The position numbers were made by a program, and so were the translations under genes. Below the pieces are notes generated by a model. That model saw only the letters and a program-made list of their open reading frames with translations, was not told the DNA's origin and made no database searches. Below are positions 48,030 through 62,587 of a DNA stretch of 64,000 nucleotides, in pieces. Origin of the DNA: an uncultured Traorella sp. (GTDB lineage Bacteria > Bacillota_I > Bacilli_A > Erysipelotrichales > Erysipelotrichaceae); NCBI GenBank assembly GCA_944324265.1, contig CALUVS010000004.1, positions 1-64,000 on the forward strand, given 5' to 3'. The stretch's first letter is position 1. The number at the start of each line of letters is the position of its first letter.

Positions 48030-48053
48030 GATGGATTTTCCATCTTTTTTTAT
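48027..48053. terminator. Terminator between convergent genes
   Basis: GATGGA and TCCATC pair around three T and are followed by a seven-T run. It ends the lipid kinase gene and overlaps the end of the glutaredoxin-like gene. Confidence 0.8.
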
Positions 48054-48310
48054 CGAATAGCTTCTTCTAATACCGACTGCATCTTCTCAATAGTAGGAAT
48101 GCCTTCATGAATTTTATATTCATTCACATAAAAAGCTGGAACATACCAATAGTCATAATAGTTAGCAATTTCAGGATGTTCCTTTTCATCAATCACTTCA
48201 ATTTCAACAGTAGTATATCGTAAGTTTTCTTTTTTTAATTGTTCAATCAGCTGCAATGCTTTTCTGCAGTGAGGACAATTCTTTAAGCTCATCATTTTTA
48301 CATGTTTCAT
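48050..48310 (-). CDS. Glutaredoxin/thioredoxin-like protein
   Basis: An 86-residue thiol-redox protein. The active site is NCPHCRKA near residues 11-18, followed by a long helix, a parallel strand and the cis-Pro-containing DYWYVPAFYVNEY. The start at 48310 is taken for GGTGAT immediately upstream. Small stand-alone thioredoxin-fold proteins often act as disulfide reductants; the partner is unknown. Confidence 0.85.
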   Translation of the reverse strand: MKHVKMMSLKNCPHCRKALQLIEQLKKENLRYTTVEIEVIDEKEHPEIANYYDYWYVPAFYVNEYKIHEGIPTIEKMQSVLEEAIR

Positions 48311-48366
48311 TTTATCACCAAGCTCATCATAATTCATTTATCTTTTGAATACTATTCATATGCCCA

Positions 48367-48745
48367 AAAAAAGCTGGAATATTTCATCCCAGCTTTAACA
48401 ATTTCGTATTTATCAATAATCACAACCTTTTATATGTTCTCAATCATCTGATTGTTAAGACTCAATATGTATTTTGCATCTTTTACAATGCGTTTGATTT
48501 TTTAGGAAGTTTTCTCTTCCGCTTTTGTTACTAAAGAGTTTTTTGTCTACTAGGCAGATTGTTTACATATAACATTCGTTGCTTTCTTTTTTGTCCATGG
48601 GTCTGTCCTCCTATAGACAATACACTTGTGTGGCTTTCAGTTTCCTCATATGGTCGTGTCAGCCATACAGGAAACGAACTAAATTTCTTTTAAAACCTCT
48701 TTCATGGAATTTCCTCCGTTTCCAAGAACCTATGTTCTTTTTACA
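48367..48745 (-). ncRNA. Candidate structured noncoding RNA
   Basis: A 380-base left-reading region without a sizeable open frame has several strong pairings: GTTTCCT/AGGAAAC enclosing ATGG/CCAT (48640-48675), GTCTA-TAGG...CAGA paired with TCTG-CCTAGTAGAC (48545-48618), GGAAG/CTTCC (48505-48520), and a terminator AAAGCTGG/CCAGCTTT followed by seven T (48370-48396). A TATTAT box lies near 48751. Two tiny frames with GGAGG before ATG (8 and 11 codons) occur inside. I recognise no known RNA family. RNA identity and boundaries are inference from folding. Confidence 0.4.
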
Positions 48746-48781
48746 CTTATATAATACCGCATCTTTTCTTTAAAAATAGTC

Positions 48782-48838
48782 TTATAATTCATTTTTTTTC
48801 GTGCTATAATAAATTTGTTGAGGGTGTAAGCGTTTACA
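48782..48838 (+). promoter_or_regulatory. Promoter with perfect CcpA cre palindrome
   Basis: TTATAA and TATAAT are 17 bases apart with a TG extension to the -10. About 15 bases after the -10 comes TGTAAGCGTTTACA (48825-48838), which fits the cre consensus recognised by CcpA and is perfectly palindromic apart from the centre. A cre just after a start site is a repressing position. The rightward transcript would run into a hairpin and antisense to the next gene, so its target is unclear. Confidence 0.6.
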
Positions 48839-48853
48839 CCTCATTTTCATATA

Positions 48854-48879: not shown

Positions 48880-49386
48880 TTATACTCCATTTCTTTCGTT
48901 GACAATCGTATCCCATGTGGCTTTGCCGATAATTCCGTCAATCGTCAGATCATACAAATACTGCAATTGCTGAACAGCGATGCGCATAGCATTGCCGTAT
49001 TCCCCATCCACTGTAATTGTTTTCAAGCATGGATTGTCCTGGGCAATCTCATTCAAATATTCCTGCATCTTAAATACTTCAATGCCATAATCTCCTAATC
49101 CCAGAAAATACGCTGCAGAAGCCAATGGAACATTGGTTACTACCTGCATTCTTTTCAATGTGTCAAAAATCGCATCCCATGTCAAGGAACCGATAATGCC
49201 GTCAGGATTCAAACGTGCATATGTCTGAAATTCTCTGACTGCGGCCTGTGTTCGAGGGCCAAAATAACCATCCGGAGTTAAAGTGGTACGAATATAGCCT
49301 GCCTGCTGAAATAAATTCAAATAAGCTTGAATTTTGTTGACACCAATTCCTGTATCTCCTAAACGTAAAACGTATCTTGTATACAT
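48880..49386 (-). CDS. Protein with two peptidoglycan-binding domains
   Basis: A 168-residue protein consisting almost wholly of two PG_binding_1 domains. The first spans about residues 5-75 (LRLGDTGIGVNKIQAYLN, LTPDGYFGPRTQAAVREFQ, GIIGSLTWDAI), the second about 92-165 with the same LGDYGIEVFKMQEYLN, VDGEYGNAMRIAVQQLQ, GIIGKATWDTI order. There is no signal peptide or catalytic domain, so it may be a wall-binding cofactor released by another route. The start follows AAAGGATG. Confidence 0.88.
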   Translation of the reverse strand: MYTRYVLRLGDTGIGVNKIQAYLNLFQQAGYIRTTLTPDGYFGPRTQAAVREFQTYARLNPDGIIGSLTWDAIFDTLKRMQVVTNVPLASAAYFLGLGDYGIEVFKMQEYLNEIAQDNPCLKTITVDGEYGNAMRIAVQQLQYLYDLTIDGIIGKATWDTIVNERNGV

Positions 49387-62361: not shown

Positions 62362-62545
62362 ATAAAAAACGACTCCAATCAAAGGACGAGAGTCGTTTCG
62401 TGGTACCACCTTATTTCATGCACTTAAAAAAAGTACACCTCTTATTCTTTAACGCAGAGATACGGTCAAGTTTTCACAAGACAGCTCCTTGGTAGTAAAC
62501 ATCTCCTATCAGAATGACTTGCACCCACCGTCATCTCTCTTCACT
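62362..62545 (-). promoter_or_regulatory. T-box riboswitch (threonine)
   Basis: The leader of thrS senses uncharged tRNA-Thr. The T-box sequence AGGTGGTACCACG is at 62399-62411 on the minus strand. Stem I is closed by AGAGAT/ATCTCT (62456-62538). The terminator AACGACTC/GAGTCGTT with seven T (62365-62398) follows, and the start codon is 20 bases later. ACC in the specifier-loop region would be a threonine codon, though I could not fix the exact specifier position. Confidence 0.88.
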
Positions 62546-62587
62546 GAATCGTAAGACATTCGTGTCCAATTCATCGCTTATGTCATT

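Follow-up and report, generated by a model that had tools for sequence, protein, structure and literature searches.

What is encoded on the minus strand of the window (the whole 64,000-nucleotide stretch of DNA analysed here) from 48757 to 48364? A preliminary description, made from the letters of this stretch, saw no plausible protein in the region and listed a TATTAT box, two mini-frames with GGAGG-ATG starts, long stems and a terminator; it proposed an unrecognised structured RNA, possibly a dual RNA/peptide locus, and named an Rfam search and a check of its two long stems for compensatory changes as ways to find out. All of the listed elements were found, on the minus strand, and no protein-length frame fits the interval. 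Comparison between genomes further establishes, at the level of sequence, an RNA family, selection on the peptide of the first mini-frame (ORF1), the hairpin P1, a pseudoknot, a promoter geometry and a division into stand-alone and leader copies. The locus is one copy of this multi-copy family, which comes in stand-alone and mRNA-leader versions, is uncatalogued and, as judged from the genomes compared, is common to many gut Erysipelotrichaceae. We regard it as very probable that the locus gives a structured, conserved RNA whose ORF1 is translated, the translation being predicted from sequence comparison.

Layout of the locus

Two minus-strand frames flank the interval: a thioredoxin-like gene at 48050-48337 (Pfam Thioredoxin_3) on one side, and on the other a frame of 168 codons at 48880-49386. 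Its elements, and those of the promoter beside it, are listed below with the evidence for each in brackets.

48820..48848, plus strand: hairpin and T run GTTGAGGGTGTAAGCG..ACACCTCATTTT just past the divergent -10 element, putative leader terminator of the predicted divergent transcript (sequence)
48805..48810, plus strand: divergent -10 element TATAAT (distance to the AGACT box 28 nt in 39 of the 41 loci with both -10 elements)
48775..48782, minus strand: AGACTATT, the conserved AGACTGTT box between both -10 elements (homolog comparison)
48751..48756, minus strand: -10 element TATTAT of the RNA (box start to -10 element mostly 26 nt in homologs)
48706..48723, minus strand: P0, a small hairpin GGAA-ACGGAGGAAA-TTCC enclosing the first Shine-Dalgarno (SD) site, GGAGG at 48717-48713 (sequence)
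48679..48705, minus strand: ORF1, an 8-codon frame with its ATG at 48705, MKEVLKEI and stop (synonymous codon changes across genera)
48640..48675, minus strand: P1, a hairpin 3' of ORF1, GTTTCCTGTATGG..CCATATGAGGAAAC (covariation in two alignments and folds of individual loci)
48657..48660, minus strand: pseudoknot strand GACA in the P1 loop (homolog comparison)
48616..48619, minus strand: pseudoknot partner UGUC, directly 5' of the second SD site and shared with the long stem P3 (homolog comparison)
48607..48611, minus strand: second SD site GGAGG (sequence; GAGG kept in nearly all homologs)
48563..48598, minus strand: ORF2, an 11-codon frame with its ATG at 48598, MDKKESNECYM and stop (start context ACCNATGGAC and length conserved)
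48543..48620, minus strand: P3, the long stem, TTGTCTATAGG..CAGA with TCTG..CCTAGTAGACAA (one compensatory change in the genus)
48618-48602 with 48558-48545, minus strand: core pairing of P3, GTCTATAGG-AGGA-CAGA with TCTG-CCTAGTAGAC
48364..48396, minus strand: intrinsic terminator AAAGCTGGGATGAAATATTCCAGCTTTTTTT, hairpin and T run (sequence, fold, homologs)

Hairpins that contain the first SD site, like P0 and with altered stems, were recognised by eye in homologs. Rfam (release 15) gave no family at gathering score at the element, either in the window or in 20 loci with relatives, and at relaxed score only weak chance matches, none of them convincing, in agreement with an unrecognised RNA. 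Identity with 6S RNA or another Rfam family was dismissed on the lack of a covariance-model match at gathering score, and tmRNA on negative ARAGORN and Rfam results, no tRNA or tmRNA being present at the element. The fold of the 386-nt strand beats 100 of 100 dinucleotide shuffles (z -4.7); the complement strand also beats its shuffles (z -5.3), and since both strands score alike, folding energy alone proves neither an RNA nor its strand. Elsewhere on the minus strand, the same window carries a T-box leader and a class B RNase P RNA (62379-62583 and 156-485).

Distribution, mini-frames and structure of the family

A DNA search of 60 relatives recovered the 5' part of the element in 4 genomes of the window's genus and showed that the window's own genome contains a second copy. 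When 295 genomes of the order were searched with a first covariance model, built from an alignment of 13 copies, 32 carried the element, every one from a single family. Matches to a DNA pattern fell almost entirely in the Erysipelotrichaceae (32 of 33), with Holdemania massiliensis, Anaerorhabdus furcosa, Lactimicrobium massiliense and MAGs labelled Solobacterium among the named hosts; a match in Stella (L095) was set aside as a chance pattern match. A second model, from 36 diverse copies, extended the distribution within the Erysipelotrichaceae to 84 of 255 genomes, spread over 14 of 60 genera, the weakest of these matches lying at noise level. Up to 7 copies are found per genome, and tandem and clustered copies occur. 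No convincing member was seen outside the Erysipelotrichaceae: other families of the class yielded six matches (E 6e-5 to 1e-3), and those inspected proved to be coding-like sequence except L133, which at 1501-1760 has a similar mini-frame string (..AGGAGAAAAGACCAATGTACA..TTTTAAAACTGAATATT) without P1, scores at noise level and is ambiguous. Plasmids gave no family match, and a viral origin was rejected, the one match on a viral contig not being a family member.

The first mini-frame carries the coding evidence. Across 55 loci, codons 2-8 of ORF1 are written in 33 distinct codon strings that translate into 13 similar peptides, mostly of the form M-K-[EKQ]-[VI]-L-[LK]-E-[YFI]. The pN/pS of 0.31 compares with a mean of 0.90 when alignment columns are shuffled, and a value that low came up in 1 of 500 shuffles; because related sequences are not independent, this and the other permutation figures overstate significance. 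Judged by these codon changes, ORF1 is under purifying selection at the peptide level, which supports the 'dual' part of the dual locus first proposed. Its peptide shows no obvious stalling motif and no run of one amino acid. All 51 stand-alone loci have an ORF1 of 8-10 codons and an ORF2 of 5-11 codons (exactly 5 in 32), whereas the two alternative frames after the ORF2 start are far more variable. In ORF2 the start context is kept and the residues are not; with context and length maintained while residues vary, it is the start and the shortness of ORF2, rather than its product, that look conserved. Both SD sites are conserved across homologs, and ORF1 together with its conserved SD site would provide the short frame ahead of a regulated site that characterises attenuators with an upstream ORF (uORF).

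Among the structures, P1 covaries. Within the genus, 5 of 18 predicted pairs are changed on both sides, rising to 10 of 12 across genera, and folds of individual loci show the hairpin recurring with wholly different stem sequences. The long stem singled out in the preliminary description, which spans a 40-base loop, is real, but beyond the window's genus only one related genus keeps it. The covariation sought in both long stems was found in P1 across genera; P3 contributes one compensatory change (G-C to U-A) within the window's genus, and its counterparts in genus g31 are weaker. A more general partner for this strand of the long stem, absent from that account, is the loop of P1: its bases complement those immediately 5' of the second SD site and form a pseudoknot with them. 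Compensated pairs occur in at least five sequences (GCAGA/UCUGC, CCAGA/UCUGG, ACAGA/UCUGU, GUAGA/UCUAC and AACAC/GUGUU), with CGCAGA/UCUGCG beside UGCAGA/UCUGCA as further variants. In the 51 stand-alone loci the longest Watson-Crick helix between the two strands averages 5.59, against 4.57 +/- 0.12 after the partner strands are exchanged among loci, with a maximum of 4.98 in 1000 such exchanges. The window's own pseudoknot has 4 bp only, as opposed to 5-7 in most homologs. P3 and the pseudoknot use the same strand, which would make them mutually exclusive.

A hairpin around the second SD site (P2, GTCTGC-ATGAGG-GCAGAC) is conspicuous in the Solobacterium-like genus, but was rejected as a universal structure (4.45 against 4.34 +/- 0.08 in the control; missing in several genera). 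A CsrA-sponge RNA was likewise discarded on reading the sequences, as some members have no GGA in their SD loops.

Promoter and genomic context

The -10 element of the RNA is part of a conserved bidirectional promoter that extends beyond the interval first described. Opposed TATAAT and TATTAT-like -10 elements around the AGACTGTT box stand upstream of nearly all stand-alone copies; both could be located in 41 of 49 loci, with the divergent spacing at 28 in 39 and the spacing on the RNA side mostly at 26. The predicted divergent transcript would begin TTGTTGRGGGC and run at once into the hairpin and T run, a combination present in 27 of 41 stand-alone loci and in 6 of 82 shuffles. In some g32 genomes and in L002/L003 the divergent side leads straight into the ribosome site of the neighbouring gene. 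The composite promoter is nearly confined to family loci (11 of 15 matches in 20 genomes), so that no wider regulon is seen, and a shared regulon acting through the AGACTGTT box was rejected on these grounds. Control by agr quorum sensing, with the element as an RNAIII-like RNA, was also rejected: AgrB does not track the element, and many carriers are without it. In the Solobacterium-like genus (L070 849-1652, L071 4169-4972) the divergent side faces a NudC-like (NADH pyrophosphatase) gene beside an amylase gene. Known bidirectional bacterial promoters (PMC12825309, PMC10268837) are likewise described as having two opposed -10 elements in one pseudo-symmetrical site; the arrangement here differs in its fixed spacing around a shared AGACTGTT box and in a divergent side that usually has an immediate leader terminator. 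With its symmetry and its one-sided terminator, this promoter is a clean example from nature for the question of how divergent transcription is managed in bacteria.

Most copies stand alone, with a terminator within a few hundred bases, and this form is both the majority and the taxonomically widest; in several Solobacterium-like genomes such copies have an amylase gene on one side and a gene for aminopeptidase P on the other. The conserved promoter and terminator suggest an independent transcription unit, as would be expected of a dual-function small RNA. About nine copies in the window's genus (g1) and two in Holdemania have no terminator and continue, as leaders, into genes whose products are secreted proteins, lipoproteins or membrane proteins, the gene behind L028 beginning 6 nt after the module. 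A downstream gene that an attenuator could regulate is found at some g1 and Holdemania copies, and not in the window or at most other copies. Pfam recognises one of nine tested downstream proteins, a C39-like peptidase, and no common function was seen when leader and neighbour genes were compared; a riboswitch, with a ligand-binding aptamer that controls an adjacent gene of a coherent pathway, finds no support, since the neighbouring genes differ and share no function.

Several peculiarities of individual copies may be recorded here. The proteins downstream of the leader copies L077, L078, L018, L074, L075, L028 and L034 (window's genus) and L062 7656-9547 are diverse and mostly lack a Pfam match, and some look glycine-zipper or bacteriocin-like. 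In L139 (G074) a second copy is followed, about 40-340 nt on, by a short Gly/Ala-rich frame (MYRSKVFSARDYAYNVRMNAHVDAGAAALAGAIFGG..) of bacteriocin-like appearance. L074 3781-5433 (G004) has an IS110-type transposase gene where the downstream gene of the leader copy is expected. In L018, L074 17837-18000 and L078 a further hairpin (CCTAAAATT..AATTTTAGG), likewise conserved, lies between ORF2 and the gene start and bears a third SD in the loop.

A putative translation-coupled switch and its rivals

We suggest a scenario in which the element is an RNA switch coupled to translation. A stand-alone RNA of about 380 nt would be transcribed from one side of the bidirectional promoter and ended by the terminator, and both mini-ORFs would be translated. 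Without a ribosome on ORF1, the P1 loop would pair with the strand just before the second SD site. Because ORF1 stops a few nt before P1, this hairpin should be melted, and the pseudoknot broken, by a ribosome that completes ORF1 or stalls on it; in the window's genus, the released strand could alternatively join P3, closing over ORF2. The state of ORF1 would thus set the accessibility of ORF2 or, where the copy is a leader, of the stretch ahead of the secreted-protein gene. Points against this mechanism are the 4-bp pseudoknot of the window, a P2 whose covariation does not exceed the swapped-partner control, and the absence of an obvious stalling motif from the ORF1 peptide. The direction of switching, as well as its signal and target, are what we infer from this arrangement, and for ribosome-dependent switching as the mechanism we see a probability just short of even. 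In stand-alone copies the ORF2 site switches only a peptide of 5-11 codons, so the useful output must lie elsewhere, and it may be a trans target, an effect on RNA stability, the ORF1 peptide or the 3' region. The wider proposal, in which two conserved mini-frames joined by a pseudoknot make up a ribosome-driven switch, would add a novel type of bacterial regulatory RNA: one that stands alone, senses the translation state, acts in trans and has also been copied before secreted-protein genes as a cis device. It is tentative, and we hold it to be on the unlikely side.

The same observations can be read differently. A dual-function small RNA would base pair in trans and yield a functional 8-residue peptide from ORF1, the pseudoknot merely folding the RNA. 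The predominance of stand-alone copies with terminators and the conservation of ORF1 as a peptide agree with this, and precedents exist, such as VcdRP (PMC8672173); but dual-function RNAs described so far have far longer peptides, the family showed no invariant single-stranded seed, and the leader copies argue for a cis role as well. We consider this explanation unlikely, if by no means far-fetched. It is these leader copies that speak for a cis-acting family, riboswitch-like or of the uORF-attenuator type, whose stand-alone members would be ended by attenuation or be relics that have lost their gene: about nine g1 copies and two in Holdemania enter such secreted-, lipo- or membrane-protein genes without a terminator, in one case with the gene starting 6 nt after the module. 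Against it, the stand-alone copies retain every element and their position, as beside their amylase and aminopeptidase P neighbours in the Solobacterium-like genus, they form the widest and most numerous part of the family, and the downstream genes share no function; a cis-acting leader family seems to us rather improbable.

Two further possibilities carry less weight. If the RNA were a short mRNA whose two peptides are the active products, for example as signals, and whose structure serves stability only, conservation of the ORF1 peptide and of both SD sites would follow naturally, but ORF2 is conserved in start and length and not in sequence, the covariation of P1 and the pseudoknot would be needless in a plain mRNA, and many carriers lack AgrB, so that we give this reading little credence. 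Mobile or repetitive DNA of the MITE type, with stems arising by chance, could account for several copies per genome and for their tandem and clustered arrangement. It is already contradicted by the synonymous codon changes and compensatory changes, and species of a genus share the gene neighbours, the promoter geometry is fixed, plasmids gave no match and the lone viral-contig match lies outside the family; we take it to be almost certainly wrong.

The putative switch has relatives in function, and the kind of device, be it structure coupled to a uORF or a small RNA with a peptide frame, is already known. In E. coli, toiL is an 8-codon uORF of topAI-yjhQ that acts through structure around a ribosome-binding site (PMC12121999), and with it and the erm leaders the family shares a very short upstream ORF beside an RNA structure that would govern the next ribosome-binding site. 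Unlike these, most copies are stand-alone, terminated and without a downstream gene, and the second site opens only another mini-ORF, with a conserved pseudoknot linking both. RNAIII, SgrS and VcdRP resemble the family as stand-alone RNAs with their own promoter and terminator and a small frame (its translation here predicted), whereas the family has two frames of merely 8-10 and 5-11 codons and is multi-copy with leader versions. Rfam families are likewise structured RNAs under covariation, but none reaches gathering score at the element. We found no description of the family in the literature; an unnamed prior prediction could stand in the supplements of the motif surveys PMC6429828 and PMC8040213, which lay outside the search. 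As far as tested, the family, the joining of two mini-ORFs by a pseudoknot and the promoter arrangement are new.

This adds an uncatalogued RNA family with both covariation and coding evidence to a gut-associated bacterial family from which very few small RNAs seem to have been described. If the scenario is true, a stand-alone RNA whose covarying pseudoknot joins two conserved mini-frames, one of them selected as a peptide, would amount to an unusual form of ribosome sensing, and the exact base pairs to mutate are now known.

After the stop of ORF2, many genera (e.g., L048, L050, L002) carry AAAACTGAATA, which resembles the tail of the Firmicutes rRNA boxA region; a link to antitermination or NusB is possible.
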